64,000 nucleotides of DNA from Cyathus striatus (taxonomy: Eukaryota; Basidiomycota; Agaricomycetes; Agaricales; Nidulariaceae). The stretch spans positions 2,232,001 to 2,296,000 of the forward strand of contig JAOVFP010000002.1 in NCBI GenBank assembly GCA_025738555.1, given 5' to 3'. Below are positions 16,280-46,503 of this stretch, in pieces (positions within the stretch are counted from its first letter, which is position 1; every line of letters begins with the position of its first letter). The notes beneath the pieces are model-generated. The model saw only the letters and a program-made list of their open reading frames with translations. It searched no databases and was not told the origin of the DNA. The translations under genes were made by a program, and so were the position numbers.

Positions 16280-16504
16280 CAGTAATTTACACTCCCCCAA
16301 GAGGTCTGTACAGATCTGTATGGATCCGCACAGATCTATACGGAATCCGCACGGAATCCGAAAATTCCGTACGGATCTGTGCGGATTCCGTGCAGATCTG
16401 TACAGATCTGTACAGACCTGTATAGATACCATACAGAATTTATATAGTGGCTATTATTATTATTAGAGGTGAATATTCTATATGGATTCTATGTGGATTC
16501 ATGC

Positions 16505-17087
16505 ATTGCTGCCTTGTCACAGGTGTCAAGTGTGACACTACATGAAATCTGTGATACACTCAATATATAGTATCATGCTCAATGCATAGTGTCATGCTTA
16601 ATGTATAGTATCACACTCAATGCATAGTGTCACACTCAACACTTAGTGTCACACTCAACACTTAGTGTCACACTCAACACTTAGTATCACACATAACATG
16701 TAGTGTCACACTCAACACTTAGTGTCACACTCAACCCTCAGTGTCACACTCAATGCTTAGTATCACGCTCAACCCTTAGTGTCACGCTTAACCCTTAGTG
16801 TCACACTCAACACTTAGTGTCACACTCAACCCCTAGTGTCACACTCAATACTTATTATCACACTTAACATGTAGTGTCACACTCAACCCTTAGAGTCACA
16901 CTCAACCCATAGTGTCACACTCAATGCTTAGTGTCACACTCAACCCATAGTGTCACACTCAACACTTAGTATCATGCTTAACCCTTAGTGTCACACTTAA
17001 CCCTTAGTATCACACTCAACACTTAATGTCACAATCAATGTATAGTGTCACACTTAACCCTTAGTGTCACGCTTAATGGAGAGTGTC
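16505..17087. repeat. 19-bp minisatellite, array of element X
   Basis: About 30 units of the GTGTCACACTCAACACTTA type (complement of GTGACACTAAGTGTTGAGT), with CACGC/CACAC/CATGC variants. Confidence 0.85.
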
Positions 17088-17575
17088 GAGCTCTTTACAC
17101 TTAGCCAGGTGTTCTGTACAGATTACATGCGGAATCCGTACGGAATTTTCGGAATCTGTGCGGAATCTGTACAAATTTTTTTCTTTTTGGCAGAGGTTTT
17201 TTTGGGTCTGTACAGATTCTGCACAGATTCCGCAGAATTCCGCATTACAGACCTGAAAAATTCTGTACAGAATCTTATTATACATATTTCCTTATAGAAA
17301 ATTAGAATAGAAAATTGTGTGATACTAAGCACTAAGTGTGACACTCTCAGTAATTTACACTCCCCCAAGAGGTCTGTACAGATCTGTATGGATCCGTGCG
17401 GATTCCGCGCAGATCCGTACAGATCCGTACAGACCTGTATAGATACCATACAGAATTTATATAGTGGCTATTATTATTATTAGAGGTGAATATTCTATAT
17501 GGATTCCATACATATTCTGCATGGATTCTGTTTGGATTCATGCATTGCTGCCTTGTCACAGGTGTCAAGTGTGAC

Positions 17576-18905
17576 ACTACATGAAATCTGTGATACATTC
17601 AATATATAGTATCATGCTCAATGCATAGTGTCATGCTTAATGTATAGTATCACACTCAATGCATAGTGTCACACTCAACACTTAGTATCACACTTAATGT
17701 ATAGTTTCATGTTTAATGCATAGTGTCACACTCAACACTTAGTATCACACTTAATGTATAGTGTCATGCTTAATGCAGAGTGTCACACTCAACACTTCAT
17801 GTCACACTCAACACTTTATGTCACACTCAACACTTCGTGTCACACTCAACACTTAGTGTCACACTCAACTCTTAGTGTCACACTTAACCCTTAGTGTCAT
17901 GCTTAATGCTTAGTGTCACGCTTAACCCTTAGTGTCACACTCAACCCTTAGTGTCACACTCAACCCTTAGTGTCACACTCAATCCTTAGTGTCACACTCA
18001 ACCCTTAGTGTCACACTCAACCCTTAGTATCACACTCAACCCTTAGTGTCACGCTTAACCCTTAGTGTCACACTCAACCCTTAGTATCACACTCAACTCA
18101 TAGTGTCACACTCAATCCCTAGTGTCACACTCAGTGCTTAGTGTCACACTCAACCCATAGTGTCACACTCAACCCTCAGTGTCACACTCAACCCATGTGT
18201 CACACTCAATGCTTAGTGTCACACTTAACCCTTAGTGTCACGCTTAATGCAGAGTGTCACACTCAACCCCTAGTGTCACACTCAACCCCTAGTGTCACAC
18301 TTAACCCCTAGTGTCACACTCAGTGCTTAGTGTCACACTCAACCCCTAGTGTCACACTCAACCCCTAGTGTCACACTCAGTGCTTAGTGTCACACTCAAC
18401 ACTTAGTATCACACTTAACATGTAGTGTCACACTCAACCCTCAGTGTCACACTCAACCCTCAGTGTCACACTCAACCCATAGTGTCACACTCAACCCATA
18501 GTGTCACACTCAATGCTTAGTGTCACGCTCAACCCTTATTGTCACGCTTAACCCTTAGTGTCACACTCAACACTTAGTGTCACACTCAACCCCTAGTGTC
18601 ACACTCAGTGCTTAGTGTCACACTCAACACTTAGTATCACACTTAACATGTAGTGTCACACTCAACACTTAGTGTCACACTCAACCCTCAGTGTCACACT
18701 CAACCCATAGTGTCACACTCAATGCTTAGTGTCACGCTCAACCCTTAGTATCACACTTAACATGTAGTGTCACACTCAACCCATAGTGTCACACTCAACA
18801 CTTAGTATCATGCTTAACCCTTAGTGTCACACTTAACCCTTAGTATCACACTCAACACTTAATGTCACAATCAATGTATAGTGTCACACTTAGTGCTTAG
18901 TATCA
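17576..18905. repeat. 19-bp minisatellite, array of element Z
   Basis: About 70 contiguous 19-bp units without spacers. Variants differ at unit positions 10-13 (ACTT, CCTT, CCAT, GCTT, CCCC). It ends in a unique tail TATCACACAATTTTCTATTC before the B terminus. Confidence 0.85.
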
Positions 18906-19191
18906 CACAATTTTCTATTCTAATTTTCTATAAGGAAATAAGTATAATAAAATGCATTACAGACCTGAAAAATTCTGTACAGATTCTGTACAGAATCTGT
19001 ACAGAATTTTTCAGGTCTGTAATGCGGAATTCTGTGCAGAATCTGTGCAGAATCTGTACAGACCCAAAATAACCTCTGCCAAAAAGAAAAAAATCTGTAC
19101 AGATTCCGCCCAGATTCCGAAAATTCCGTATGGATTCCGCACAGATTCCGCGTGGATCTGTACAGAACACCTGGCTAAGTGTAAAGAGCTC

Positions 19192-20350
19192 GGAAAAGGT
19201 GGAGTAAGGCATAGGAGTCCGGAGGTAGGTGACATGGGATATGACAAAGTTATGACAAGCTGTTCACATGATACAGTAACAGGTCTTGGCGCTATGATTT
19301 GATCAATTTTGAACTCCCCTAATAGCAGATCAGCTATCACTTGAGACTGAGAAATTGGCAAAACCTATTACAGTACAACTAGCTGTACATGGTTCTTGAT
19401 CAACAATCAATGTTTCTACATCAGTCAAATTTCAGTATCAAGAAATAAACTGTGATAAAAGATTTGATGTGGATAACCTAGACAACTATGACCTAATATT
19501 GGGGACACCATTCATATTCCAACACAAGGTTGTACTGAGCATGAATCCTACACACATAGTCATTGGATCAAAAGAACCACTAGAAATTAAAGGGGATAAA
19601 GTTAGCACAATAAACTCTGCAGCAGCAGATTTGTTTGCAACAGACCTGGAACAACTTCAGAAGGAACTACAAGCTGAAGCCATAGATCTATGCCCTGATA
19701 CATTGAAAACAGATCTTCCTCCATTCCGGGCTATAAATCACACCATACCTTTGATAGATGAGAACAAAGTCTATAAATATCATCTGGCCAGATGTTCAGA
19801 AGCTCTATAGCCCTTATGGCGAGAAAAGTGCGATGCTTACCTCAAATCAGGGAGGTGGCAGGTAGCAACTGGAGCAGCATCATCACCCATGTTAATTTTG
19901 CCCAAGAAATCGAAGGATGACACAATGCTAAAAATATGGACAGTGTTAGATAAATGTGAACAGAATAAGAACACACATAAACTTGCAGCACTGTTACCAG
20001 ACATAAACTCAATCCTGTGTAACATAGTCAGATATAAGTATTGGACATTGGTAGATCGGAAGGATGCTTATGAACAAATAAGAGTACAGGAGGATCACAT
20101 ACCTTGCACCTTATTCACAACACCTGATGGCACAATGGTAAGCCTTGTGATGCAACAGGGAGACAGCAACACAGGAGCAACATACCAAATGTTGATGAAC
20201 CATATCTTCACTTCATATATTGGAGTATTTTTGGATGTCTATCTTGATGACATTGTCATTTATTCCAACAGTGTAAAAGAACACCTGCAACACGTCAGAA
20301 CTGTGTTCAACATTGTTAGTGACAGACGAGCAAAATACTTGAAGCCAAAC
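19192..20350 (+). pseudogene. pol: Ty3/Gypsy G0 protease and reverse transcriptase, first part
   Basis: Degenerate aspartic-protease remnants (ADQLSLETEKLAKPITVQLA, then NLDNYDLILGTPFIF) are followed by RT fingers and palm: SPMLILPKKSK, WTLVDRKDAYEQIR, and the catalytic VYLDDIVIY (YxDD class, here YLDD) near 20240. A TGA at 19397-19399 occupies an Arg-like position and another stop lies at 19808. The frame reaches 20350, where G2 inserted; the target copy CAAAC is 20346-20350. Removing 20351-26793 continues the frame into the next piece. Confidence 0.75.
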
Positions 20351-20688
20351 TTAAACACTCGAACGTGAGAAAGAAGTGAGTCTTTATTACTAGTCTGGAA
20401 TAAACTAGCACAAGAATAATGACTACTAACTAAGAAAGGCCATATTTATAGAAGATATCCATGAGGGAATCACATGTAAGTAACTTACACTACAACACAT
20501 GTCTACTGTGCTTCTACATTAAAAACTCATGTTATATGTATGGCCAAGCTGTGCAACTGTGCCCACAGTGATGATGAGTAATGTATGTTGATACACATGT
20601 TGTCCGCATTGTAGGTCATGTGACTAATCACATGACATAGATAAGACAAGATTAGATAAAAGATTAGATAAATAATTAAATCCTAACA
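20351..20688 (-). repeat. G2 3' LTR (full length, 338 bp)
   Basis: Shares about 197 bp (20492-20688) with the right LTR. The outer 141 bp (20351-20491, beginning TTAAACACTCG) are absent from the right copy. Confidence 0.8.
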
Positions 20689-20900
20689 TTACCCCCCCTT
20701 TAAGAGTCATGTCTTCATGACATTTCAATAGAATCTTCTGTTTGATGAGGTCATTCGTGAATTCGAAGTATAATTCGAGGAATGTAATGACCGAGTATAA
20801 AAACAGCCATACAGAGAATGAAAATGACAATAACGTAAATCAAAAGAGTAATGTTGTTGGAAAGCATGTTGAATGATTAAAGATAATAATAAGTTCTTGT

Positions 20901-22463
20901 TTATATAGTTGGGCATTCCGGATTTTCCTGATGAAATTTATTTAGTAGACTTTTAGATCTGGTTAGTGACGTAATAGGTTCCCATGTGCAATGATCATAA
21001 GAATAGCCTTTCCACTTGATTTTATATAAAATTTTCTTCTGATTTATTTTCCATGCTAAAATTGTTTCTACTTTGTATTGTTCCTGATCGTCGATTACAA
21101 TAGCTGGTGGTGGTTTTGGCTTTTGTTGTGACTTATACTGTGCAGGTACGTATTTTGTAAGTAGTTGCGTGTTAAACACGGGGTGTTTTTGGTTCCAGGT
21201 TTTCGGTAATTGAATCTCATATGAGGCTAATCCAATCTTTTTTATTACTTTAAAAGGTCCATATCATTTATCATCCAATTTTGCAACTGGTCTGTCAGAT
21301 TTAATATTAATTCCTTCTACGTAAACAAAATCACCAGGTTTATGTTCAGGTGATTCATTTCTATTTCTATTGTATCCTCATTTCATTGCTTCGTTCGATA
21401 GAGTAAGAGCTGCCTTAGTGTTTTCTCTGGCTTTTGTTATTGTAGTGATGAATTCTTCTACACCAACAATTCGAGATGTTCCATTGGGTCTGATTCCTCC
21501 GTAGGGATGATGTCCATACATTAAATAAAAAGGGGTATAACCGGTTGCTCTATGTATAGTGTCATTGTAATTGAATTCTGTTACTGCTAATTTATCAGCC
21601 CAATCATCTTGATCGTAATTCACATAAATCCTAAGATATTGTTCTATCTCTTGATTTACACATTCTACTTGTCCGTTTGTCTGTGGTCTATATGCAGTCG
21701 ATAGGTTCATTTTAACACCTAATCATTTTGTGAATTCTTTTGTGAAATGAGATGCAAATTGTGATCCTCTGTCACTAATGATTCATTGAGGCATTCCAAA
21801 GTTTTTAAATACTTTTTCTAAATATAGTTCAGCAACTCCTGGACTATCGATTTCCTTATTGCATGGAATGAAGGCCGCCATTTTAGTGAATCAATCTACT
21901 ACTACCATCAGGAAGTCAAATCCTCAGGAATATGGAAGTGGTCCGACAAAGTCAATTGATATGGTATGCCAAGGTCCTTTGGGGATACTTTTAGGGTTTA
22001 GTAATCCAATTGGTTTTGATCGATAAATATTTGTCCTTTGACATGCTTCACATCCAGATATGTATTTGATTATGTCTGATCGTATTCTAGGCCACCAATA
22101 ATTTCTCGTGATCAATTCCTGAGTTTTGTATTCCCCATGATGTCCTGATATTGCTGAATCATGGCATAGTCTAATTATATATTCCCTTAATTTAGCATTT
22201 TTGGGAATATAAACTCGATCCTTCCATGTAATTATTCCTTCTGGAGATTCAACTCAATCTTTCGATTTTAGGTTAAGCATCTTAATAACCTCTTTATCTC
22301 GATTCCTTCTAGATTTTCGAACTTGTTCCATGATATCTTTGTCTTCACTGTGAACTTCATAAGTTTGTCTGAAATGTTCCAGTTTAAGAAGAATAATATC
22401 TTCATTATCATGTTCTCCTTGTTCATGTCCTGCTCTTCGGGATAATAAATCTGCCTTGGTCAT
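20901..22463 (-). pseudogene. pol: G2 integrase with C-terminal chromodomain
   Basis: Zinc-binding and core blocks WWPRIRSDIIKYISGCEACQ, ISIDFVGPLPYS, ISDRGSQF and YRPQTNGQVECVNQEIEQYL (complete catalytic-core layout), then a GPF/Y-like module (YGPFKVIKKIG) and a chromodomain (LYKIKWKGYSYDHCTWEP). In-frame stops are TGA at the residue before GFDFLMVVV, between VVD and FTKMA, before IISDRGS, before LGVKMN, before GYNRNR and before YGPF. Most are positions where Arg is conserved. The chromodomain suggests targeting to heterochromatin. Confidence 0.85.
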
Positions 22464-22640
22464 CTGATTTCTGGGTTTGTGATGTAACGTGTAGTGAAAC
22501 TCTGATAATTCAGTTGACCACCTTGCTTGTCTATGATTTAATTTCTGTGGTTTCCTAAAATATTGGAGATTCTTATGATCTGTCCAGATTTCGAATATTT
22601 GTCTAGCTCCTAAAAGGTATTGTCTCCACGTGTCTAATGC

Positions 22641-23978: not shown

Positions 23979-24062
23979 AGTATTAATTATTGGAGTACAT
24001 TCAATTGGGCATCATGTGAATTTAATAGTTTCATTCTTCCAATCTATTTCTGGATTGTGAGT

Positions 24063-24933: not shown

Positions 24934-26602
24934 TCACTGCTGGCCTTGGGGAAAACCCAATTGAGCAATGAGAAGAGCACGTTGCTCTTCTGATAATTTA
25001 GTTACATCCAGTATTTCTACTATTCCACTAGTGGAAGCTACAGGTATCGAAGAGTCCGTGTTTACATTATATTGTACATATGGTCTGTGAGGTTTCTTTG
25101 TGCATGTGTTGGACATATGTCCTTTTTCCTTACAATAAAAACAATGACCTTCTTTCTTAAGTTGGTCGAGATCCATTCGGTTTCCACCTTGGGATACAGT
25201 AAGATTCGATCGGTTCGGCAGAGTTTGTTGTGCAGGTTGTCCTGATGGGTTCGTGTTAGGCGTGTTAGTGGGTCATCCATTATTTTGATTCTGAGGCCTT
25301 TGGTTTTGTGTGATGCATCCAAAATTAGCCTCTTGACGGTTCCTTTCATATTCTGCGGCTTTATCTACCCAATCAATAAGTTTATTGGTGACTTTAAGTC
25401 CACTGACTTCCACAAGTCTTCTAGCTAAAAGAGGGTGCATTCTGCGTCAATATTTGTCTACTAAGGCCGTGTTATCGAATCCGGTTAAATTCATCCATTG
25501 TATGAAATCGATTGTATAGTCTTCGACCAGTCGACTTCCCTGTATGACTTTATTAATCTGTTTGATCGCATTATTCTGTGTTTCTGTTGATATGAAAAAG
25601 AATTGAAGTCTTTTGACAAACGTGTTCCAGTCAGTGAATGGACAGGCTGTTTTGAATGCCTCATGAATAATAGCTGGAGAGTTTTCCATTGCTGCAATGT
25701 TAACCCTTTGGGTGTCTTGTAGAGTGGGTTCCTTTCCGTCGTGTAATAATTTCCATTGAGCTCGTTCTTCATTGAACAAGATCAAATCTCCTAAAAATGT
25801 GTCCGCCCACCGTTGGGCTCAATTGTCTTTTCCCTTTTTAACTTTTGGTAAGGTGATCATAATCTTTTTCCAATCGTTTGTGATATTCTTTTCCTGAAAG
25901 TATAGCATCATTCATCAGATCCAATTATTAACTGTATGAGGGTCTCCCTCATAATCTTCTGGTATCTCGACCTTTTCCTTAGGTTCCGGTCGGTCTTCTT
26001 TGATTCCATCTCTGATTTCTTTAATGACTCCTTGTGTCATTGCAGAAACACTCTCTGTGACTAACTGCTTATTGGCAGGAGTCATATTCGTCCATCTGGT
26101 TACTATTTCGTCTCTCATGAAAACCATCACTATGGCTGTGATGAAGCCAATAATGATTTCGGCGGAGATCATTATAGATCTGGGTTATCGGGATATTTAG
26201 GGAAAGGGAGTTCTTTTCCATCGTTACAGACAGTATTGATGAGAGTTTCATATCCTAATGGGGAATAGAAATCTCATTCGAATGGAGATATGTAACATGT
26301 TGGGGTGCTGAATCTTAGACTGTTGTCATGTCCGGGTTTGGTGACAATAGTAAGGGTTTGGGGAATAGGTTGTTCAGGAGGAGAGGGATGGTGAGGTAAT
26401 GGGATGTAATCGGGGATTTGGTGAAGAGAAGGATATGTGTTGGGATCAAAATCCGAGTCGTCAGAGTCCACTGACATGGCTCTTGGAGATTGAGGATGGG
26501 TGTAGGGTGTAGGGCGAGATTGACAGATATAGATTGGTGTGGATGAGGAAGGGATGTGATAGGATTGAGAACAGAGTGATCGAAGGGTTTACTACAATGC
26601 AT
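24934..26602 (-). pseudogene. gag: G2 gag with CCHC zinc knuckle
   Basis: Capsid region at 25785-25447 (LVEDYTIDFIQWMNLTGF) and nucleocapsid knuckle CFYCKEKGHMSNTC at about 25120-25160. N-terminal frames (26477-26274, 26172-25915) include a hydrophobic segment near the start (IIIGFITAIVMVFM) and Pro-rich sequence. Interrupted frames prevent one continuous product. The 5' leader between the right LTR and gag is very short. Confidence 0.7.
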
Positions 26603-26788
26603 GTCTACTGTGCTTCTACATTAAAAACTCATGTTATACGTATGGCCGAGCTGTGCAACTGTGCCCACAGTGATGATGAGTAATGTATGTTGATATGCAT
26701 GTTGTCCGCATTGTAGGTCATGTGACTAATCACATGACATAGATAAGACAAGATTAGATAAAAGATTAGATAAATAATTAAATCCTAA
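26592..26788 (-). repeat. G2 5' LTR, truncated to about 197 bp
   Basis: Aligns with 20492-20688. I see four difference clusters and all resolve to a CpG ancestor: AACACATG/AATGCATG, TATGTA/TACGTA, CCAAG/CCGAG and TACACATG/TATGCATG. It lacks the 141 bp at the U5 end found in the left copy, and the primer-binding site is not recognisable. Confidence 0.8.
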
Positions 26789-26793
26789 CAAAC

Positions 26794-27371: not shown

Positions 27372-29721
27372 GAGCTCTTTACACTTAGCCATGTGTTCTG
27401 TACGGATCCGCGCGGAATCCGTGCGGAATCCGTGCGGAATCCGTACGGAATTTTCGGAGTCCGTGCGGAATCTGCACAGATTTTTTTCATTTTGGCAGAG
27501 GTTTTTTTGGGTCTGTACAGATTCCGCACAGATTCCGAAAATTCCGTACGGATTACGCAGAATTCCTCGGAATTCCGCATTACAGACCTGAAAATTCTGT
27601 ACAGATTCTGTACAGAATCTGTACAGAATTTTATTATACTTGTTTCCTTGCATGTGACACTCTGCATTAAGCATGTCACTAGGTGTTGAGTGTGATACTA
27701 GGTGTTGAGTGTGACACTATACATTAAATGTGACACTATAAGCGTGACACCAGGTGTTGAGTGTGACACTATACATTAAATGTGACACTATAAATGTGAC
27801 ACTAGGTGTTGAGTGTGATACTATACATTAAATGTGACACTATAAGTGTGACACTAGGTGTTGAGTGTGACACTAGATGTTGAGTGTGATACTAGGTGTT
27901 GAGTGTGATACTATACATTAAATGTGACACTATAAGTGTGACACTAGGTGTTGAGTGTGATACTATAGATTAAATGTAACATGATAAACGTGACACTAGG
28001 TGTTGAGTGTGATACTAGGCGTTGAGTGTGATACTATACATTAAATGTGACACTATAAGCGTGACACTAGGTGTTGAGTGTGACACTATATGTTAAATGT
28101 GACACTATAAGCGTGACACTAGGTGTTGAGTGTGATACTAGGTGTTGAGTGTGACACTAAGCATTGAGTGTGACACTAAGTGTTAAGTGTGACACTAAGC
28201 ATTGAGTGTGACACTAAGCATTGAGTGTGACACTAAGTGTTGAGTGTGACACTAAGCGTTGAGTGTGACACTAAGTGTTGAGTGTGACACTAAGCGTTGA
28301 GTGTGACACTAAGCATTGAGTGTGACACTAAGTGTTGAGTGTGACACTCTGCATTAAGCGTGACACTCTGCATTAAGCGTGACACTAAGGGTTGAGTGTG
28401 ACACTAAGGGTTGAGTGTGACACTCTGCATTAAGCGTGACACTCTGCATTAAGCGTGACACTCTGCATTAAGCGTGACACTCTGCATTAAGCGTGACACT
28501 AAGGGTTGAGTGTGACACTAAGGGTTGAGTGTGACACTAAGGGTTGAGTGTGACACTAAGCATTGAGTGTGACACTCTGCATTAAGCGTGACACTAAGGG
28601 TTGAGTGTGACACTAAGCATTGAGTGTGACACTAAGTGTTGAGTGTGACACTAAGCATTGAGTGTGACACTCTGCATTAAGCGTGACACTAAGCATTGAG
28701 TGTGACACTAAGCATTGGGTGTGACACTAAGCGTTGAGTGTGACACTAAGTGTTGAGTGTGACACTCTGCATTAAGCGTGACACTAAGGGTTGAGTGTGA
28801 CACTAAGGGTTGAGTGTGACACTCTGCATTAAGCGTGACACTCTGCATTAAGCGTGACACTCTGCATTAAGCGTGACACTAAGGGTTGAGTGTGACACTA
28901 AGGGTTGAGTGTGACACTAAGCATTGAGTGTGACACTCTGCATTAAGCGTGACACTAAGGGTTGAGTGTGACACTAAGCATTGAGTGTGACACTAAGCAT
29001 TGAGTGTGACACTAAGTGTTGAGTGTGACACTAAGCATTGAGTGTGACACTCTGCATTAAGCGTGACACTAAGCATTGAGTGTGACACTAAGCATTGGGT
29101 GTGACACTAAGCGTTGAGTGTGACACTAAGTGTTGAGTGTGACACTCTGCATTAAGCGTGACACTAAGGGTTGAGTGTGACACTAAGCATTGAGTGTGAC
29201 ACTAAGCGTTGAGTGTCACACTATACATTAAACATAACACTATACATTAAGCATGACACTAAGTATTGAGTGTGACACTATGCATTAAGCATAACACTAA
29301 GTGATGAGTGTGACACTCTGCATTAAGTGTGACACTAAGTGTTGAGTGTGATACTATACATTAAGCATAACACTATGCATTAAGTGTGATACTATGCATT
29401 GAGAATGATACTATATATTGAGTGTATCATGGATTTTGTATAGTGTGACACTTTTCACCTAGAGTTACACTTGACATGTGTGACAAGGCAGCAATGCATA
29501 AATCCACACAGAATCCATGCAGAATATGTATGGAATCCATATAGAATAATCACCTCTAATAATAATAATAGCTACTATATAAATTCTGTATGGTATCTAT
29601 ACAGGTCTGTACGGGTCTGTACGGATCCGTACGGAATTTTCGGATTCCGTGCGGATTCCGTACGGATCCGTGCGGATCCGTACAGATCCGTACAGACCTC
29701 TTGGGGGAGTGTAAATTACTG
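27372..29721. mobile_element. KDZ non-autonomous element, copy 3 (2350 bp)
   Basis: The B terminus GAGCTCTTTACACTTAGCC (27372) is on the left and the A terminus GGGGGAGTGTAAATTACTG (to 29721) on the right. Flanking 8-mers differ (AAAATTTC and GATTACAG). The left flank is Gypsy G0 and the right flank is a KDZ transposase gene starting mid-domain, so this copy sits at a rearrangement junction. Its termini are rich in CCGTACGG and CCGTGCGG palindromes. No coding capacity. Confidence 0.85.
27656..29440. repeat. 19-bp minisatellite of copy 3 (about 94 units)
   Basis: The longest array. Many units retain GCGTGACAC, the CpG form, while others read GTGTGACAC or GCATGACAC. Higher-order blocks repeat, for example pairs of AAGGGTTGAGT then CTGCATTAAGC units at 28380-28560 and again at 28780-28920, indicating segmental duplication within the array. 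Confidence 0.85.
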
Positions 29722-31590
29722 GATTACAGCTCTTACTAGAGTTCTAAAAAGGGATCTAGGTGGTAAAATTAATAATTTGTTTACTGAAGATGAAGTTTCA
29801 AATGCTGAGGATATAACTGATGTGCAGAGAATTAATGCATTGGGCTCAAAACTTGATTCATTTGCAACATTTTTAAAACTTGATCCAATTAAAAAAGGAC
29901 ACCCTTTAAACTCTGTAAGAACCACAGAAGTTGAACCTGTTTTTACTGTTTGTCCAAGTCGTTACACTTGCTCTACACCATCTTGTAAAGAGACTCCACT
30001 TCACCAAGAAGTTTGTAAGAGAGATGTTTCATGTATAACTCTTATAAAAGGAATGCATCCCCACACTGGTGCTTATGTGCTTAAAGGAAAATGTGGCATT
30101 TGTAACTCATTTTATTATGCTGATCACAAAAGTGTGAAGCATGCAAATGGTACACATATCAGAGGATTGTCAAACTCAGCAAAATATTTAAAGCTTGGAC
30201 AGCAAGTCTGGGCAGATAGATCTTACACCAATGCAGTTCTGCATGGAATTTATCATTTTCATGCATCTACAGCTGCATTCACAGAATTTTGGAATGAATC
30301 CTTTAGAGAGTCATCATTCAAGTTGTCTCACAGATAAACTTGGCAGGCATTCATTTCTGAAAGTGTAAGACAGGTAGCTACATACAATAATAAATCACTT
30401 ATAATAACATCAGGTGAACGTGAGATTCAAGAATTAACTAGAAAAGCATTTGAAATACTTGGTCAAGAAGGTATTATTGAATGTGCTAAAGATCATTCAT
30501 GTAGTGAATGTACACATGAGTACAAAAGTACTGCAGACAGAATAACTGATGACACTCCTGCTGCAGTAATTGGAATTGATGAAAATCAATCAGTTCCCAT
30601 GCTACAGGGGGAAGATGCAGAACAAGCTATGAGAGAGGAAATAGAAGCTAGAGCAAGTGCTCGGCAACACATTAGTAGTACCACCAATGATATGGATATT
30701 GACAATGAGTCATCAAGTGAATCATCCAGTGATTCATCTAATAAAACAACCAATACTGATCAACCAACTCAGGCTGAAAGAAAGCCAATAGTAAATATGG
30801 TTGTTATGGATGGCATAATTATGGGTCCAAGACATTGTGCATACCAGGATTGTGATGGTAATTTAGAAAATGAAAGAACTGGAGTATTTTGCATAATTCA
30901 TCAAGCTATGCGTGGTCATTTATGTCATATAAAATTATGTAACAACCCAAGAGAAAATAACTCAAAGACATGTGTTAATCATCAGTCATGGTGGCGCCAT
31001 CATTTAGTAAGATTTGGTAGACAAACACTTTTAGGAATAAGAAGAATTATTCGCAGAAGTGAAGAGGAACAGGTGGATTGGCTTCCTCGTATAAATCAGC
31101 AGGTAATACCTCATGATGATGCTCCTGCACCACATGAGGAGTGAAACCATTACTTCACTGCTCCACAGTTTTACTGTGTTGAAACCTTATGTGCACCATG
31201 TGGAGCAGTTATTGCATGGACAAAGTTTACAAAATCTGAGGGACCTGGAAATATCATGAGATTTTTAGATCATGTTTATCCAACTCTTGAATCTCGTCCA
31301 AGCTATGTCTGTATTGACAAAGCATGTGTAGTGCTGAAAAATGCTGTGCTAAATGGTGCATGGAGGATCTGGAGTTTAACAACAAGATTTATTGTTGATT
31401 CTTATCACTACATTAATCACAGAACAACTGATTATACTTGTTGTAAATGGTGCAATCCAGCACCATTAAATGGATCTGCACCCAACTTGGTTGTAGTAGA
31501 AAATGATATACATGGAAGACCACATTATAAAAGAGCATTTAATACCCAAGTAAGTAATAAATTAACATGTATATAGAACTTCATCTAAAG
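29722..31590 (+). pseudogene. KDZ transposase (CxC5/CxC6 type), truncated copy
   Basis: The frame starts inside the protein directly at the end of copy 3 (ITALTRVLKRDLGGKINNLF). A Cys cluster of CxC5 type follows (CPSRYTCSTPSC, CGICNSFYYADH), then an acidic linker, a CxC6-type cluster (MGPRHCAYQDCDGN, CHIKLCNNPRENNSKTC) and KDZ-core motifs (YVCIDKACVVLK, FIVDSYHYINHR, CCKWCNPAPLNGSAPN). It ends at the exon border AFNTQ with a GTAAGTAA donor; the terminal exon present in the 52-kb copy is missing. Stops: TAA at 30335-30337 and TGA at 31142-31144. The apparent start at 29471 lies in the neighbouring element and is not native. KDZ proteins are cut-and-paste transposases with an RNase H-like fold. 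Confidence 0.85.
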
Positions 31591-31599
31591 TTTTGATAC

Positions 31600-31932
31600 A
31601 GGCTTGTGTACTTACCTTGTTTTCACACTTCTTTTACTGCACCTTAGTAATGCACAGCACTTTCATATTCCTTTTGACTCATACTATATCTATTATTAGT
31701 ATGAACCAGTTTGTATTTAAACAGTAGGAAGTTGGGCTGTAGAGCTCAAGCTTCAGCTTAAAGAATACTACTGCATTCATACTCAACTTACACTTAAGTT
31801 TGTTTGACTTAAGTCCCTTAGTTTTGTATTGAGACTTCTTCAATACTGACTTAACTTGTTCTTTGAACTTGCTAGTCATGTGACTTTGGACTTGTATAAT
31901 TTATGAATCTTCAGATTAACTAAATCATAACA
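31600..31932 (+). repeat. G1-family LTR fragment, opposite orientation to G1
   Basis: Read on the minus strand it matches the G1 LTR from TGTTATGATTTAG onward through CCTACTGTTTAAATACAAACTGG and beyond; the far end is missing. It abuts the truncated KDZ gene on the left and Gypsy pol debris on the right. Divergence from the 6815/13868 LTRs is greater than theirs from each other, so it is an older insertion. Confidence 0.75.
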
Positions 31933-32010
31933 TCTGGGATTTCAATCATCTTCTCATTGGGGATTCTTGTATCCTTGAGAGAATACCTGTAATCTTGAGG
32001 GAGAGTTGTT
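31933..32010 (-). pseudogene. Gypsy (G1-related) protease-RT linker fragment
   Basis: Near-identical to 11540-11615 of G1 (GGGATTTCAATCATCTTCTC, TCTTGAGGGAGA). It ends at 32010, where unrelated DNA begins. Confidence 0.7.
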
Positions 32011-32314
32011 AGATATTCTGGGTTGCACAGCTTCTGGTTCAGACCTTGGTAGGACTTTGGTACCCTTGGTAGGACTTAGGTACTCTTGGTAGAACTTAGG
32101 TACTCTTGGTAGGACTTAGGTAGAACCTTGGTTGGACTTTGGTTGGACTTTGGAAGACAACTACAGTATGTAAACACTCTGTAACTTGGTAGTTGTTAAC
32201 AAGTTTCCTCCCCATCTGTGTCTGTGTCTGTGTTAGTGTCTGAGTCTTTACCTCTCTTATTATTCTCTTTGCTCTCAATCACTCCCTTTCTCTTTTTTGC
32301 TTCTGACAAGAGTT
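32011..32314. repeat. Segment duplicated from the WD40 locus region
   Basis: 32170-32306 matches the reverse complement of about 2905-3040 (ACTCTGTAACTTGGTAGTTG, CAAGTTTCCTCCCCAT, TTTGCTCTCAATCAC). Before it lies a short tandem repeat (TTGGTAGGACTTAGGTA, 32040-32150). Last 8 bp CAAGAGTT (32307-32314) are the target-site copy of the next element. Confidence 0.65.
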
Positions 32315-34185
32315 GAGCTCTTTACACTTAGCCAGGTGTTCTGTACGGATCCGTGCGGAATCCGTACGGAATTTTCGGAATCTGTGCGGAATCTGCACAG
32401 ATTTTTTTCTTTTTGGCAGAGGTTTTTTTGGGTCTGTACAGATTCTGCACAGATTCCGCACAGAATCAAAAATTCCGTGCGGATTCCGCAGAATTCCGCA
32501 TTACAGACCTGAAAAATTCTACTTATTTCCTTATGGAAAATTAGAATAGAAAATAGTGTGATACTAAGCACTAAGTGTGACACTCTGCATTAAGTGTGAC
32601 ACTAAGGTTTAAGCATGATACTGAGGGTTAAGCATGACACTAAGGTTTAAGCATGACACTATACATTGATTGTGACACTAAGTGTTGAGTGTGATACTAA
32701 GGGTTAAGTGTGACACTATGTATTGAGTGTGACACTAAAGGTTGAGTGTGACACTAAGGGTTAAGCATGACACTAAGTGTTGAGTGTGACACTAAGCATT
32801 GAGTGTGACACTCTGCAGTAAGCGTGACACTAAGGGTTGAGTGTGACACTAAGGGTTAAGCATGATACTAAGGGTTGAGCGTGACACTAAGCATTGAGTG
32901 TGACACTATGAGTTGAGCGCGACACTGAGGGTTGAGTGTGACACTAAGTGTTGAGTGTGACACTAAGCATTGAGTGTGACACTAAGCATTGAGTGTGACA
33001 CTAAGCATTGAGTGTGACACTAAGGGTTAAGCATGATACTAAGTGTTGAGTGTAACACTCTGCAGTAAGTGTGACACTAAGGGTTAAGCATGATACTAAG
33101 GGTTGAGCGTGACACTAAGTGTTGAGTGTGACGCTATGCATTGAGTGTGACACTATGGGTTGAGTGTGACACTATGAGTTGAGTGTGACACTATGAGTTG
33201 AGTGTGACACTATGGGTTGAGTGTGACACTATGAGTTGAGTGTGACACTATGAGTTGAGTGTGACACTATGAGTTGAGTGTGACACTGAGGGTTGAGTGT
33301 GACACTATGAGTTGAGTGTGACACTGAGGGTTGAGTGTGACACTGAGGGTTGAGTGTGACACTAAGTGTTGAGTGTGACACTAAGTGTTGAGTGTGACAC
33401 TAAGTGTTGAGTGTGACACTAAGTGTTGAGTGTGACACTAAGTGTTGAGTGTGACACTAAGTGTTGAGTGTGACACTAAGTGTTGAGTGTGACACTAAGT
33501 GTTGAGTGTGACACTAAGTATTGAGTGTGACACTAAGTGTTGAGTGTGACACTAAGTGTTGAGTGTGACACTAAGTGTTGAGTGTGACACTAAGTGTTGA
33601 GTGTGACACTAAGTGTTGAGTGTGACACTCTGCATTAAGCATGACACTATGCATTGAGTGTGACACTATGCATTAAGCATGACACTATACATTAAGTGTG
33701 ATACTAAGTGTTGAGTGTGACACTATACATTAAGTGTGATACTAAGTGTTGAGTGTGACACTATGCATTAAGCATGAAACTATACATTAAGTGTGATACT
33801 AAGTGTTGAGTGTGACACTATACATTAAGCATGACACTATGCATTGAGTGTGATACTATACATTAAGCATGGCACTATGCATTGAGCATGATACTATATA
33901 TTGAGTGTATCACAGATTTTGTGTAGTGTCACACTTGACACCTGTGACAAGGCAGCAATGCATGAATCCACACAGAATCCATGCAGAATATGTATGGAAT
34001 CCATATAGAATAATCACCTCTAATAATAATAATAACCACTATATAAATTCTGTATGGTATCTATACAGGTCTGTACGGGTCTGTACGGATCTGCACGGAA
34101 TCCGCACGGATCCGTACGGAATTTTCGGATTCCGTGCGGATCCGTACAGATCTGTACAGACCTCTTGGGGGAGTGTAAATTACTG
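32315..34185. mobile_element. KDZ non-autonomous element, copy 4 (1871 bp)
   Basis: From GAGCTCTTTACACTTAGCC to GGGGGAGTGTAAATTACTG, flanked by perfect 8-bp duplications CAAGAGTT (32307-32314 and 34186-34193). It contains B and A terminal domains and a 19-bp array but no gene. The array has more GCATGACAC and fewer GCGTGACAC units than copy 3, which fits greater age. Confidence 0.95.
32560..33940. repeat. 19-bp minisatellite of copy 4 (about 73 units)
   Basis: Between about 33355 and 33630 roughly 14 consecutive units read GTGACACTAAGTGTTGAGT almost without change, a sign of recent homogenisation or slippage. Confidence 0.85.
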
Positions 34186-34193
34186 CAAGAGTT

Positions 34194-36540: not shown

Positions 36541-36560
36541 TGTGCAATTTTTATGGCTAA

Positions 36561-38240: not shown

Positions 38241-40320
38241 GACCTACACAGCAAAGGCCACCACATCTATTGGCCAGACAAGAAAACAATTGGGATTGAA
38301 CACACAGTTTATTTCACAGAAGACCAGGTACCAGCAGACAGTAAGCAATTTGAGCTTGTGGGGGAGGATTCTGGGGTCAATGACAAGCCCAACATTGAGG
38401 GGGAGTCTATAACAGCAGATGAGTCAGGGGGAGGCAAAGTATCATCTAATCATAACATACTTTTTAACTCATCACTCCCCAATATAGACACTTGTCCAAT
38501 GCATAACCAAAAGCCCTCCCAATATGTGTGCAACATCCAGGCTGGCATAGGAATGACCATGATATGAAAATCATCCCACACATCTCAACTACCCAAGGGG
38601 ATGAGAGTCCCAGGAGCATTTGGAGAAGAAACTATTGAGGAAGAGCGACAGATAGAGGACAAGGAGGCTGTTGAGAAGCAGCTTCAATTGGAGGAAGAGA
38701 TTAATGGTGTGGCAATGGTGGCAGCTATGGCTGAAGCTCATGAACTTGAACCCCAGTCCTATGCTGAAGCCAAGTGTAGCCCAGACTGGCCAATGTGGGA
38801 AGAAGTGATGCTGGAAGAGAAGAATGTGCTCAAGACACATGGTACATGGGTACTGGAGGAGCTGCCAAAAGGGACGAATGTCATCAGATGCCAGTGGGTA
38901 TATGCTGTAAAGCGTGATAGTGGTGGTGCTATCAAGCACTACCATGCTAGACTGGTGGCCCAAGGGTTCTCCCAAATTCCTGGTGTAGATTTCTTCAATA
39001 CATATGCACCTGTAGCCAAGATGGTGTCCATTCAAACTATCTTGGCATTTGCAACTTGCCTTGACCTTGAAATTCACCAGGTTGATGTGAAAAGCACATA
39101 TCTAAATGGGGAGTTTGAAGAAAATGAGGTCATATACATGAAGCAACCACCAGGCCTATATCTTACCTCAGACCCCAAGAAGGTACTACAACTTCTCTGC
39201 CCCATCTATGGCCTTCGACAGAGTGGAAGACACTGGTATTGCAAGCTCCTACATATCCTGAAGACTAACTTGAAGATGTTGCAGTATGAGGTGGACCAGG
39301 CAGTTTTCTTTCATGCTGACAAGAAAGGGATTGTCATCATAGCCATGCATGTTGACGACTTAACCATCACAACGTCTTCTATGGCCTTAGTTGATGAAGT
39401 GAATGGCGCACTGCAGAAAGATGTGGAGATATCTGACATGGGGGAAATCCACTGGATCTTAGGCTTTGTGGTCCACAGAAACAGGGAGGAATGTACCCTT
39501 TCGCTATCACAGAAAGCATATATTGAGTCCATCCTGGAACAGTATGGCTTCAAGGACTTGAAGCCACACGCAATGCCCATGAGCCCAGCAACAAAGTTAT
39601 CAAAATCCCAGGAGCCCCAAACTGCCAAGGAGTTTGCTGCCATGCAAAATAAGCCATATTACAAGGCTGTGGGATCTTTACAGTATCTATCCCTTGGTAC
39701 TTGCCCAGATATCACTTTCACAGTGGGACAGCTGGCCTCATATAACAAAAACCCCAGTATGGCTCACTGGAAAGCTCTTGAGTGGGTATATGTATACCTT
39801 AGCAGGACTCAAGACTATGAGCTGACCTTTGGACATAAGTCTTTGGACTTGGAGGGGTACAGCGACACTAACGGGATGAACTTGGAGCACTGACAGGCGA
39901 TTTCTGGCTATGCATTTCTTATAGATGGGGGAGCAGTATCATGGAGCAGCAAGAAACAAGATCTTGTAGCTCTCTCAACCACAGAAGCCGAGTACATGGC
40001 TGCTACCCACACTGCCAAAGAAGCCCTGTGGCTGCATTCCCTAATAGGCCAGGTGTTTGGGAATATTGAAGGGCCTGTCACCCTATTCAGTGATAACCAG
40101 TCAGCTATTGCACTTACCAAGGATCAGCAACATCATGCACACACAAAGCACATTGACATTAGATTCCATTTCATTTGTTGGATTATTGAGGAAGGGAAGG
40201 TGAAGTTGAAATACTGTCCAACTGACAATATGGTGGTGGACATGTTGACCAAGGCATTGCCCAGTACCAAGGTAAAGCATTTTGCACACAAGCTGGAATT
40301 GAGGGCACACACAGATTGAG
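38241..40320 (+). pseudogene. pol: Copia reverse transcriptase-RNase H
   Basis: The long frame 38601-39893 holds RT motifs: WVYAVKRDSGGAIKHYHARL, VAQGFSQIPGVDFFNTYAPV, QVDVKSTYLNGEF, YMKQPPGLY and MHVDDLTITTSS (the xVDD active site). RNase H follows with SGYAFLIDGGAVSWSSKKQ and the ALSTTEAEYMA block. TGA at 39891-39893 replaces a residue before QAISGYAF where Arg is usual; another TGA is at 38565-38567. RNase H ends at 40318, directly before a purine tract (GAGGGGGAG) and the 3' LTR. Only these few lesions interrupt it, so it is the best preserved pol in the window. Confidence 0.9.
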
Positions 40321-40326
40321 GGGGAG

Positions 40327-43300
40327 TGTTGGAGCATGCGATTGCTAAAGGCAATCAGTGCACTTTTGATGTGCTGAGAAGTCGGCTGGCAGGATGCCAG
40401 TACCATGATTCATATCCTTCATCCATAAGTGTCAGCTAACTACAATCATATAATGGCAGGGTTACATGATTGTACAATCAAATAAGCTAGGTGTTATATG
40501 ATTGTCTTTTATTGTATATGTACTAGTAATACTACTTACTTCAGGCAATCATAAACAATCATTGATTTGTTCTATTTTAATTGCACTACTATAATAATAT
40601 TATAGACAACCATAAACAATCATTGATTCAATCTATTTGAATAGTACTATTAAGAATACTATAGGCAATCATAAACAATCATTTATTAAATTTATTTGAA
40701 TAGTACTACTAGGAATACTATAGGCAATCATAAACAATCATTGATTACTATGACAGTAACTGGATATTACTATTGTATGAATTTGTCACATTCTCTGGTG
40801 TGTCACAGCTGTCACGAATGTCACATGCATCATAAAATTCATGCGCTCCACAGATTTACCATGCCTTGTGTACTTCTTGAGCCCAACAATTTCTCATGTG
40901 TTACATTTGTTACATATTTTGTGTGCATCACAAATGTCATGTTTTTCTCATGGGTCACAACTGTCACATATATTCTCGTGCTTCACATGTTTCCTGTGCA
41001 TCATATCTGTCACATTCTTCCTGCATGTCACATTTGTTACACATATTCCCATATGTTATATATGTCACGCATATACCCACGCTTCATAATTGTCACGCTT
41101 TTCCCACGCGTCACATTTGTCACATTCTTCTTGTGCTTCATATATGTCACACATTTCCCAGTCACAATTGTCACACATTTCCCAGTCACAATTGTCACAC
41201 ATTTTTCCGTGTGTCACAATTGTCACGCATATTCCTACATATCACATTTGTCACGCTTTTCCCACGCGTTACATATGTCACATTTTTCTCGCGCTTCATA
41301 TGTCACACATTTTCCTGTGTGTCACAAATGTCACACTTTTCACCCTTTTACTCATTTTCTCACACTTCACATATGTCATGCATGTCACACACATCAAACT
41401 TTTCACACTCATCACACATGTCACATTACATTTGTCTCATTTTTCATGCTTATTACATGTCATATCTTTGATGTTCATGTTACATTTGTCACAATTTTCA
41501 CAGCTTAGTAATGTAATTCAGCCTTTGACATTGAAAACATATTTAGATTTGAAAACTATGTTAAAAGAAGGATGCTCAGCAATAGCATATGCATGGACCA
41601 CTTTCTGATGCTATTTGAGTAGTTACCTGTTTGATCCTGTCAGTAGTCATATGCTTGTCTCAAAGATTAAGGCATGCATGTCTTGAGTATAAATAACATA
41701 CTATACCATTATGATCTCAAATTTAGGCTCACAAGCAAAGTAAGCAGTTGCAAATTTTGACCATGCTTGTTGTACCTCTCTGTTCAGGCCTAACTGTAAT
41801 GTGTAATGAATCCAGGATCTGTTCAAGTTCACAGTGCCATGTAATGAGTGACTGAACAGTTGGTTGTAATAGTACAGTATATCAGAGGTGTAAACACATA
41901 TGGCAGTGTAAAAGTGAAATTGATTGTGACAAAATATCAATAAGAGTGGAGATGATTTTCATTACTTCTCCGTATCAATAAAGCAAACAGTCATGTAGTC
42001 ACATACAGGAAGCATATATGTGACTCATTAACATATGTTGAAGATATTAGTATATACTATAACCAATGGTTGATGCAAGAATCATTATTATCTAATGACT
42101 GAGATGTGTAAGTTTGATGTGTGATCAAATGTAAGATGCAAAAATAAGTACTTATATGTACAGTTGTCATATCTTGCATCAGATAAGTAAAACTTGAAAA
42201 ATTCTACATATTACATTAAGTCCAAGAAATCATGTGTTGCAGGTGTAATATGTGACAAGTTGGAGAACACTTGTACCATGTCAAAAATGTGGCAAATGTA
42301 ATCCAATTTGAGAATATAACAAACTTGACATGTGACATGTAACAAAGACATGATACACATGAAAACTGTGATGGGCAGATAGAGTATAACAAGTGACATG
42401 CTTGAAAATTATGTGGATTGACACTCATCAAAGGCATGATGCATGCAAAGTGTGACAAATGTAACATGCACATCAAAGATATGATATGGAAGCATAAAAG
42501 TGAGATAAATGTGACATATGAAATACATGACAAATGTAACAATGTGACACACGTGACGAGCGAGAAAGTGTGACATGTGTGACATATGTGCGGCGCGGGA
42601 AAATGTGTGACATATGAAGCGCGAGAAGAATGTGACATATGTAACGCGTGGGAAAAGCGTGACAAATGTGATATGTAGGAATATGCGTGACAATTGTGAC
42701 ACACGGAAAAATGTGTGACAATTGTGACTGGGAAATGTGTGACATATATGAAGCACAAGAAGAATGTGACAAATGTGACGCGTGGGAAAAGCGTGACAAT
42801 TATGAAGCGTGGGTATATGCGTGACATATATAACATATGGGAATATGTGTAACAAATGTGACATGCAGGAAGAATGTGACAGATATGATGCACAGGAAAC
42901 ATGTGAAGCACGAGAATATATGTGACAGTTGTGACCCATGAGAAAAACATGACATTTGTGATGCACACAAAATATGTAACAAATGTGACACATGAGAAAT
43001 TGTTGGGCTCAAGAAGTACACAAGGCATGGGAAATCTGTGGAGCACGTGAATTTTATGATGCATGTGACATTCGTGACAGCTGTGACACACCAGAGAATG
43101 TGACAAATTCATACAATAGTAATATCCAGTTACTGTCATAGTAATCAATGATTGTTTATGATTGCCTATAGTATTCCTAGTAGTACTATTCAAATAAATT
43201 TAATAAATGATTGTTTATGATTGCCTATAGTATTCTTAATAGTACTATTCAAATAGATTGAATCAATGATTGTTTATGATTGTCTATAATATTATTACAG

Positions 43301-43670
43301 CAGTGCAGTTAAAATAAAACAAATTAGTGATGTTTATGATTGCCTGAAGTAAGTAGTATTACTAGTACATATACAATAAAAGACAATCATATAACACCTA
43401 GCTTACTTGATTGTACAATCATATAACACCTGGCTTATTCGATTGTACAATCATGTAACCCTGCTATTATATGATCAAATTAGCTGACATGCCTCCTTCA
43501 TCTGCTTCCATCTTTGTAAATGTTCCTTTATATAAGTAGATTAGAAAGCATGACAGCTCTCCTCAGACTTGCTACTCATGTGAGACCTGAGGTGAGCTGT
43601 ATGTGTTGATATCTTTCTTACCTTATGCTTACATTACCTATTGTAGTACTTATATCATTCAATAGGTAAT
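40327..43670 (+). repeat. Copia 3' LTR, split by a 3-kb insertion
   Basis: First part 40327-40422 (TGTTGGAGCATGCGATTGC...), second part from 43502 to roughly 43670 (TATATAAGTAGATTAGAAAGC, CTCTCCTCAGACTTGC). The split halves correspond to the related solo LTR at 47532 (TGTTGGAATGCAAAGAG ... GTTGATTAGAAAGC ... CTCTCCTCAG). The exact 3' end is uncertain; a short duplication of TACTTATATCATTCAATAG follows. Confidence 0.65.
40423..43493. mobile_element. Palindromic non-autonomous element with ~1.07-kb inverted arms
   Basis: Arms 40423-41500 and 42400-43493 are reverse complements of each other (GTCAGCTAA ... ATCATATAAT.GCAGGGTTACATG at the outer ends). A central spacer of about 900 bp holds no gene I recognise. 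The 8 bp TCCTTCAT occur immediately outside both ends (40415-40422 and 43494-43501), consistent with an 8-bp target-site duplication. The arms are full of TGTCACA motifs at 15-30-bp spacing. The long frames in the arms (270 and 325 residues, Cys/His/Ser-rich) simply translate the repeat. Confidence 0.8.
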
Positions 43671-44785
43671 ACATAGACTTGCTACTCATGCGAGACCTGA
43701 GTACTTATATCATTCAATAGAATCTCACTACTCTTACATGGAAGAGGTTGGTAAAGTAGGGCATGGTCAAAGGAATAATAATAAAAATACATTATATTCT
43801 TCAATGACTTATGAAGAACACTAAATGATACATAGTAGTTGCACAGTATTAGTAGTACTATCTTTAACTAAAATTATTGCAAGTCATGACAATTTTTTTG
43901 ATTTTCAGCTGTTCTCAAATTTCCTCATACCTCTGTTCATGGAGCAGTGTGACACATTATGAAATGTATATCTGCTCATGTTCATGGCATTGTGTGATGT
44001 GTTACTGAACAGTTGGTCAAAATGGTGCAGTACTATTACCAGATTGTCACAGTACATTGTTGGTCTTGAGTGCAGAAAACCATTGGAAGCTGGGAATGGC
44101 TATCATCAAAATAAAGCGAGTGAAATGAGAGCTATGGTTGAGAAGTACTATCATGATGCATAAGCCCCTAACTGGATCAATTTTGAGTGGAACAACTGGA
44201 ATGCTGGAGGTACTATGAAGACTTATAGTTTTAGTTTTAATAGAACAATAATGTCTTATAATTTATGATGAATTCACTCTCTTCAGTTTTAACTGCATGC
44301 TTTGTTAGTTCATTGTTAGTGCTCAAACTACACTATTGGAGCTAAAGTACCTAGTTTAGCACAACATAGTGTAAATGTAAATAGTAATAATAAAACTCAC
44401 ACCACATACACTCACTAAGAAAGTGCTCAGTGGGTAAGACTTGGATGCAAGGTGCTTCTGGGCGAAGTAAAGTAATGAAGAGTTGTTGAAGACCAATGTT
44501 CAAGACGAAATGTGAGCTTAGTGAACACTTTGATGTGTGTTTTGATGCATATTCCTTAATCTCAGACTTAACATGGGCTTATGACTTCTCACTTTCATTG
44601 CACTCAGAATCTTGTTGCTCACACAAATATGAATGCAAACTGCTAGGTGGTATTTCTCAGGGCACAGGAGACTGCCCTCATACTACTCTACTCTACCTAT
44701 TAAATATTATACAGAACTACAGCTAGAGAAACTATATAGTTGATACAAATACAGTAATTTACACATTAGGTAAGCAGTAAGGTAG
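43671..44785. other. Intergenic, short unassigned frames
   Basis: Contains a possible decayed coding exon at 43978-44163 (MFMALCDVLLNSWSKWCSTI, ending at TAA) and a second frame 44496-44726. Similar wording appears on the minus strand at 41701-41940 (FSHSLHGTVNLNRSWIHY), suggesting a low-copy repeat. No function is assigned. Confidence 0.3.
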
Positions 44786-44793
44786 ACATTTAG

Positions 44794-46495
44794 CAGTAAT
44801 TTACACTCCCCCAAGAGGTCTGTACAGATCTGTATGGATCCGCACAGATCCGTACGGAATCCGCACGGAATCCGAAAATTCCGTACGGATCCGTACAGAC
44901 CTGTATAGATACCATACAGAATTTATATAGTGGTTATTATTATTATTAGAGGTGAATATTCTATATGAATTCCATACATATTCTGCATGGATTCTGTGTG
45001 GATTCATGCATTGCTACCTTGTCACAGGTGTCAAGTGTGACACTACATGAAATCTGTGATACACTCAATATATAGTATCATGCTCAATGCATAGTGTCAT
45101 GCTTAATGTATAGTATCACACTCAATGCATAGTGTCACACTCAACACTTAGTGTCATGCTTAATGTGTAGTGTCACACTCAACACTTAGTGTCACACTCA
45201 ACACTTAGTGTCACACTCAACACTTAGTGTCACACTCAACACTTAGTGTCACACTCAACACTTAGTGTCACACTCAACACTTAGTGTCACACTCAACCCT
45301 TAGTGTCATGCTTAACCCTTAGTGTCATACATAATGCAGAGTGTCACACTCAACACTTAGTGTCATGCTTAACCCTTAGTGTCACACTCAACCCTTAGTA
45401 TCACACTCAACCCTTAGTATCACACTCAACCCTTAGTATCACACTCAACCCTCAGTGTCACACTCAACCCTTAGTATCACACTCAACCCTTAGTATCACA
45501 CTCAACTCATAGTGTCACACTCAACCCTTAGTATCACACTCAACACTTAGTGTTACACTCAATGCTTAGTGTCACACTCAACCCATAGTGTCACACTCAA
45601 CCCTCAGTGTCACACTCAACCCATAGTGTCACACTCAACCCTCAGTGTCACACTCAACACTTAGTGTCACACTCAACCCCTAGTGTCACACTCAGTGCTT
45701 AGTGTCACACTCAACACTTAGTGTCACACTCAACCCTCAGTGTCACACTCAATGCTTAGTGTCACACTCAACCTCTAGTGTCACACTCAATGCTTAGTGT
45801 CACACTCAACCCATAGTGTCACACTCAATGCTTAGTGTCACACTCAACCCATAGTGTCACACTCAATGCTTAGTGTCACACTCAACCCCTAGTGTCACAC
45901 TCAGTGCTTAGTGTCACACTCAACCCTCAGTGTCACACTCAATACTTAGTGTCACACTCAACCCCTAGTGTCACACTCAGTGCTTAGTGTCACACTCAAC
46001 CCTCAGTGTCACACTCAATGCTTAGTGTCACACTCAATCCCTAGTGTCACGCTTAACCCTTAGTGTCACACTCAATGCATAGTGTCACACTTAACCCTTA
46101 GTATCACACTCAACACTCAATGTCACAATTAATGTATAGTGTCACGCTTAAACCTTAGTGTCACGCTTAATGGAGAGTGTCACACTTAGTGCTTAGTATT
46201 ACACAATTTTCTATTCTAATTTTCTATAAGGAAATAAGTATAATAAGATTCTGTACAGATTCTGTACAGAATCTGTACAGAATTTTTCAGGTCTGTAATG
46301 CGGAATTCTGCGGAATCCGCACGGAATTTTTGATTCTGTGCGGAATCTGTGCAGAATCTGTACAGACCCAAAAAAACCTCTGCCAAAAAAAAAAAAATCT
46401 GTGCAGATTCCACACAGATTCCGAAAATTCCGTACGGAATCCGCACGGATTCCGCGCGGATCTGTACAGAACACCTGGCTAAGTGTAAAGAGCTC
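44794..46495. mobile_element. KDZ non-autonomous element, copy 5 (1702 bp)
   Basis: From CAGTAATTTACACTCCCCC to GGCTAAGTGTAAAGAGCTC, flanked by perfect ACATTTAG duplications (44786-44793 and 46496-46503). A-domain about 44794-45025, array 45030-46205, B-domain 46206-46495. It is the cleanest single member for defining the family. Confidence 0.95.
45030..46205. repeat. 19-bp minisatellite of copy 5 (about 62 units)
   Basis: Complementary orientation (GTGTCACACTCAACACTTA). The first seven units after 45170 are nearly identical, the rest mixed. The tail TATTACACAATTTTCTATTC matches the tails of other copies. Confidence 0.85.
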
Positions 46496-46503
46496 ACATT
46501 TAG

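Follow-up and report, generated by a model that had tools for sequence, protein, structure and literature searches.

Gene-less, minisatellite-filled elements of Cyathus striatus resemble internal-deletion derivatives of CxC5/CxC6 DNA transposons

Introduction

Several non-autonomous DNA transposons are already known to carry tandem repeats, among them Tetris, Xenopus miniature inverted-repeat transposable elements (MITEs) and BrickBuilt. We describe here an arrangement of this kind in Cyathus striatus, starting from a stretch of 64,000 nucleotides of its 107-Mb genome (contig JAOVFP010000002.1, positions 2,232,001 to 2,296,000; G000:C2:2232001-2296000 in our numbering), hereafter the window. 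The elements in question, termed passengers, are short and gene-less, are bounded by two ends, A and B, and have an interior made of a 19-bp minisatellite. They share their ends with a longer family that bears a CxC5/CxC6 gene, whose 9-kb member in the window had been labelled a KDZ element in the initial annotation.

According to the account in PMC4079207, Tetris of Drosophila virilis is a modular foldback DNA transposon, non-autonomous like the passengers; as in these, tandem repeats occupy its interior, and portions of its ends are common with another element, DAIBAM. As described there, however, its units of ~220 bp lie within terminal inverted repeats and seed longer satellite arrays, whereas here a single 19-bp array separates two unlike arms, and every array cluster among the matches listed sits at an A or B end. 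Galileo of Drosophila likewise holds internal tandem repeats and has had inversions attributed to its copies (PMC3688188, PMC4168063), but in these accounts it belongs to the P superfamily and has long inverted repeats with transposase sites, a role for which the array studied here finds no support. Xmix and miDNA4 of Xenopus are MITEs that carry tandem repeats, in other transposon groups (miDNA4 being listed as Tc1-mariner) and in animal hosts, as summarized in a review (PMC9659126). The BrickBuilt MITE of Porphyromonas gingivalis is reported to contain a minisatellite of 23-bp units set between a leader and a tail that are constant and bear small inverted ends, but it is bacterial and present in 19 copies in one strain (PMC4596501).

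On the side of the gene, the closest described case is the insert in poMSH4 of sporeless Pleurotus ostreatus, which PMC7641404 presents as a mobile-looking unit of 6.8 kb with a 739-amino-acid CxC5/CxC6 frame, many genomic copies and no KDZ transposon within the expected distance. It thus matches the gene-bearing family in having a CxC5/CxC6 frame within a mobile-looking unit, which its authors linked to Copia; 'target site', 'terminal inverted' and 'tandem repeat' are absent from the text of that article, although the insert is described with 46-bp direct repeats and a microsatellite cluster. Among KDZ elements, PMC12730594 gives target duplications of 8 bp for Zisupton and Dileera and 7 bp for Kyakuja; the former agree with the duplications found here, although a KDZ core went undetected in the gene. 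Our literature search found no description of minisatellite-filled passengers for KDZ or CxC5/CxC6 elements; in other groups of transposons, arrangements of this general sort have been described.

Results and Discussion

The window contains four complete A..B elements of 1.7-2.35 kb and a nested inverted remnant, all with interiors of 19-bp minisatellite. Exact A ends (CAGTAATTTACACTCCCC) lie at 16280, 17348 and 44794 on the forward strand and at 34185 and 29721 on the reverse strand, and the 9-kb element has two more, at 51336 and 51526, both forward. The B motif (GAGCTCTTTACACTTAGCC) is matched exactly at 17088, 27372 and 32315 forward and at 46495 and 19191 reverse. The passenger at 32315-34185 (reverse strand, 1871 bp, ~73 units) is flanked by the perfect 8-bp duplication CAAGAGTT (32307-32314 and 34186-34193), and that at 44794-46495 (forward strand, 1702 bp, ~62 units) by ACATTTAG (44786-44793 and 46496-46503), both exactly as the initial annotation had given them. 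The other two passengers, at 17348-19191 (forward strand, 1844 bp, ~70 units; flanking 8-mers GACACTCT / GGAAAAGG unmatched) and at 27372-29721 (reverse strand, 2350 bp, ~95 units; flanks CTGTAATC / GAAATTTT, without target duplication), are considered below together with the rearrangements. The 9-kb element itself (51336-60414, forward strand, 9079 bp) has both ends, that at 60414 on the reverse strand matching the B motif with 3 mismatches, is flanked on both sides by ACTCATCA (51328-51335 and 60415-60422) and holds no 19-bp array. The claim of gene-less elements with the A and B ends of a gene-bearing family and a minisatellite as cargo was borne out; the count of at least five was right as to four complete elements, while two of those named, X and Z, proved to be nested and inverted and not two independent intact elements.

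In whole-genome searches, the A motif (an 18-mer) gave 737 matches and the B motif (a 19-mer) 514 at <=1 mismatch, and a 30-base array pattern gave 1393; the reversed A, B and array patterns, used as controls, gave 0 matches in 107 Mb, which places all three counts far above chance. The places examined were the first 100 listed for each motif. Among the A places, 77 of the 100 listed (737 counted) paired with an exact B end <=20 kb away, and four pairs were omitted: one spanned 11.5 kb, and in three a second A preceded the same B. The resulting sample of 73 passengers, made up of the window's 4 and 69 others on contigs C1-C3, favours intact copies since exact A and B motifs were needed. Target duplications were exact over 8 bp in 51 of the 73 and had <=1 mismatch in 61, the remaining 12 having more than one, and a 9-bp match occurred in none (0/73). 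The array motif was present in 71 elements, in identical orientation in all of them, and spanned 5-113 units (median 55); a periodicity call of 5.7 units on L026 was discarded from this count, that element being without 19-mer motifs. Element length ranged from 0.49 to 2.68 kb (n=73) with a layout of arms plus array in 71, and judged by length and layout there is no transposase gene between the passenger ends, the gene scan having covered part of the interiors.

At the other extreme stand L032, which consists of arms only, and L015, with about eight units, both of which could be ancestral forms or array losses. Two further elements deserve mention. L026, 2.65 kb long from A to B and flanked by a perfect 8-bp duplication, has a GC-rich interior and no 19-bp array motifs, and L077:201-2312 is an A..B passenger with few array motifs and an apparent nested element whose ends (CAGTACTTTACACTCCCC..) are related yet distinct.

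The arrays were also traced independently of the ends. Fifteen array clusters on C1 (first 100 of 1393 places) comprised 13 inside exact A..B pairs and 2 adjoining an exact B or exact A end, so that all 15 lie at an A or B end and an array existing mostly outside such elements, which would have spoken against the cargo reading, was not encountered. Of the 1393 array matches, 311 fall within the 73 elements; a few hundred such elements would thus account for all of them, and short gene-less array-carrying elements probably number hundreds in the genome.

The ends compared in sequence are common to passengers and gene-bearing copies. L032 and L015 moreover match several gene-bearing copies at 88-92% identity over 190-260 bp of the A side, and the passengers look like internal-deletion derivatives of the CxC5/CxC6 gene-bearing family. 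Perfect 8-bp duplications occur in 7 of the 9 gene-bearing copies with both ends, where L083 was counted through its outer A end (1 mismatch to the motif), whose 8-mer equals that of the B side, the internal A giving 3 flank mismatches; ten copies formed one set, in five of which both ends fell inside the fetched stretch. An internal second A motif, at 51526-51543 (forward strand) in the 9-kb element, is present also in L070, L083, L085 and L087. The gene-bearing copies looked at have no 19-bp array. As to whether another autonomous element matches better, L073-type gene-bearing copies are indeed closer than the 9-kb element to the ends of 44794-46495, whereas for passengers like L002 and L044 the A arm of the 9-kb copy is the nearer one; all belong to the same family.

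The partner gene, which in the 9-kb element lies in several open pieces at 52186-54239 on the reverse strand, encodes a CxC5/CxC6 protein with Pfam matches PF18718 and PF18721, and thus contains cysteine clusters that are KDZ-associated by Pfam name. This association, the 8-bp duplications, as in Zisupton and Dileera, and a D..D-x-[AG]-C..H..H..CE spacing similar by eye would fit an ordinary KDZ (Zisupton-like) transposon whose core has diverged too far for Pfam. We regard that as a real possibility, though on balance not the favoured one. The KDZ transposase core PF18758 gave no Pfam match in the CxC5/CxC6 genes, and hhalign against KDZ cores, represented by one local frame plus 26 of its 120 listed homologues, returned a probability of 0.3%, with a null result for the C-terminal part alone, which leaves the KDZ label of the 9-kb element without support. 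PF18758 loci are numerous in the genome; of the eight listed on C1, none has an exact A end within 10 kb. In Pleurotus, too, CxC5/CxC6 frames stand apart from KDZ genes in the cases that PMC7641404 describes.

The structure model of the homologue P0036 resembles DDE integrases and transposases and has an RNase H-type core with the D, D and E residues in place, and on this model the CxC5/CxC6 protein is most likely the DDE transposase of the family. Pfam matches of the genes include no hAT family; 8-bp duplications together with a CAG start are features that we presume to resemble those of hAT elements. The CxC5/CxC6 genes might themselves encode the DDE transposases of a superfamily of its own, marked by CAGTA../GAGCTC termini and by target duplications of 8 bp, with the passengers as a dispersed inversion-making repeat system; to this proposal we give close to an even chance.

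Whether arrays travel with the ends or arise afterwards was approached by aligning 14 chosen close or swapped pairs. The passenger at 44794-46495 and L045 (C2:2107156), which lie 170 kb apart in different target sites, are 99.88% identical over aligned positions, their arrays differing by four whole-unit indels (10, 1, 5 and 1 units) and their A arms by one 31-bp indel. L059 and L062, again at different target sites, are 99.77% identical; their A arms differ by 51 bp and their arrays by 2 units. Since both near-identical pairs keep a common unit order at different sites and their arrays differ by whole units, arrays can move en bloc. Other aligned pairs were more reshuffled; L058 and L069 have identical arms, yet they are 94.3% alike overall, with odd-sized gaps and arrays that are not cleanly collinear. 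Array length is quick to change, the median difference across 31 pairs with arms <1% diverged being 17 units. These last observations, along with the short or array-less forms L015 and L032, might suggest that the transposon spread short seeds from which arrays grew independently at each site after insertion. Such a history is contradicted for L045/44794 and L059/L062, two pairs 99.8-99.9% identical in which the unit order is kept throughout and array gaps always comprise whole units, and as a general explanation we hold it to be very unlikely, although it could apply elsewhere or be superimposed on en-bloc copying.

The A and B ends have a common core, TTTACACT, within otherwise unlike arms, of which the A arm measures ~220-300 bp and the clearly shared B arm ~60-90 bp. 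Long terminal inverted repeats such as foldback elements have were not found in the A/B elements; clusters of short palindromic repeats in the arms give inverted BLAST matches of only ~30-110 bp. A palindromic CYGYRCRG-type motif (10-11 bp) reaches 26.8 and 32.9 per kb in the two arms against 0.26 in the flanks, and is clustered at both ends of the 9-kb element, L070, L073 and L078 and sparse in L075 and L079; it may be a binding site for the transposase. The initial annotation had instead raised the 19-mer array as a transposase-binding array. Arrays acting as functional cargo, with extra binding sites that raise mobility, have a precedent in the proposal for the end repeats of Galileo, as given in PMC3688188, and would suit the fixed orientation of the array relative to the ends and its presence in 71 of 73 copies. 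The likeness of the 19-mer to the termini is, however, not above that of shuffled units, which did as well in 150/2000 cases for B and 747/2000 for A, the CYGYRCRG-type motif is absent from the arrays, and the gene-bearing copies examined do without an array. A binding function of the array is accordingly improbable in our estimation.

Substitutions between close pairs (18 non-redundant of 207, with array comparisons kept at 94% identity or above) were concentrated at CpG. In the arms, C-to-T (or G-to-A) changes affected 63/1640 positions at CpG versus 17/4077 at other C or G, and in the arrays 77/530 versus 164/7848. This CpG-to-TpG/CpA bias is consistent with methylated elements. Nucleation of heterochromatin by the arrays, which the initial annotation had also raised, is a conjectural role.

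Several copies carry duplications that match those of a neighbour instead of their own. Four A-side 8-mers equal the B-side 8-mer of another element among 5256 ordered pairs, and all four cross-matches are inverted neighbours within 110 kb, a limit chosen after the pairs were seen and which 70 ordered pairs satisfy. Between L027 and L028 the swap runs both ways, with a single CxC5 exon divided between the two (residues 228-277 and 276-326 of P0002), the halves joining at the duplicated bases. The swapped duplications, with the split exon of this pair, point to inversions between inverted copies, and passengers appear to have caused local chromosome inversions. Mismatched duplications could otherwise reflect decayed or misassembled copies, given that a single assembly was used and arrays are hard to assemble; L060 and L061, with one 8-mer in common, are open to a reading as decayed duplications too, and L046 and L047 have just one of two 8-mers in common. 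With all four cross-matches falling on inverted neighbours, and with the reciprocal swap and split exon of L027/L028, we see little likelihood in decay or misassembly as the explanation. L046 and L047 (C2:2218607-2322440), inverted and ~100 kb apart, flank the window and share the 8-mer AATATTTG, which suggests that the window lies inside a rearranged block between them.

Within the window, the segment at 16280-17347 is as expected if a copy had inserted into the array of an outer copy and later been split by inversion between two B arms. The A-side half of the outer passenger (16280-17087, forward strand) comprises A end, subterminal arm and ~24 array units up to the target AGAGTGTC (17080-17087), which stands just before the B end at 17088; its reverse complement, GACACTCT (17340-17347), stands just before the A end at 17348. 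Between them (17088-17347, forward strand) the nested inverted copy terminates, its B end and arm reading inward, and an inverted remnant of the outer array follows. The outermost flanks of the complex (CCTTTGAC / GGAAAAGG) are unmatched, so that this history is not the whole account. The passenger at 27372-29721, without duplication, adjoins at its A end a broken CxC5/CxC6 gene of a related copy (29722-31573, forward strand), and the two together mark a rearrangement.

The window also contains other repeats. Likely long terminal repeats are seen as direct repeats at 6812-7347 and 13865-14400 (97.4% identical, ~7 kb apart), with an 81% relative at 31609-31932 beside the broken CxC5/CxC6 gene, and as 200-bp direct repeats at 20489-20688 and 26591-26790 (97% identical, ~6 kb apart). 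A foldback-like element of ~3 kb at 40441-43447 has inverted repeats of ~1 kb (90% identical) holding 59-bp and 28-bp TGTCACA-rich tandem arrays, and an inverted repeat of TGTCACACTTTTTCCAACATG-type units occupies 905-1504.

Conclusions

Taken as a whole, we consider it highly probable that the passengers are non-autonomous internal-deletion derivatives of CxC5/CxC6 DNA transposons, mobilised in trans with arrays as cargo and followed by inversions. They would have arisen by internal deletion with the recognition ends kept; the 19-bp interior array would gain and lose whole units, probably via slippage or unequal exchange; a transposase supplied in trans would move ends and array as a single piece, leaving an 8-bp target duplication; and copies in inverted orientation may then recombine through arms or arrays, flipping the DNA between them.

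CxC5/CxC6 genes, which are common in mushrooms and whose role has so far been unclear, gain from these data a concrete place in a transposon and a candidate function as its transposase; the data also bear on the unexplained CxC5/CxC6 insert of the sporeless oyster mushroom. Sitting in known target sites and ranging from array-less to ~100 units, the passengers are a naturally occurring series in which the birth, spread and lengthening of a minisatellite can be measured, and their dispersed arrays would provide material for measuring how inversions are driven.

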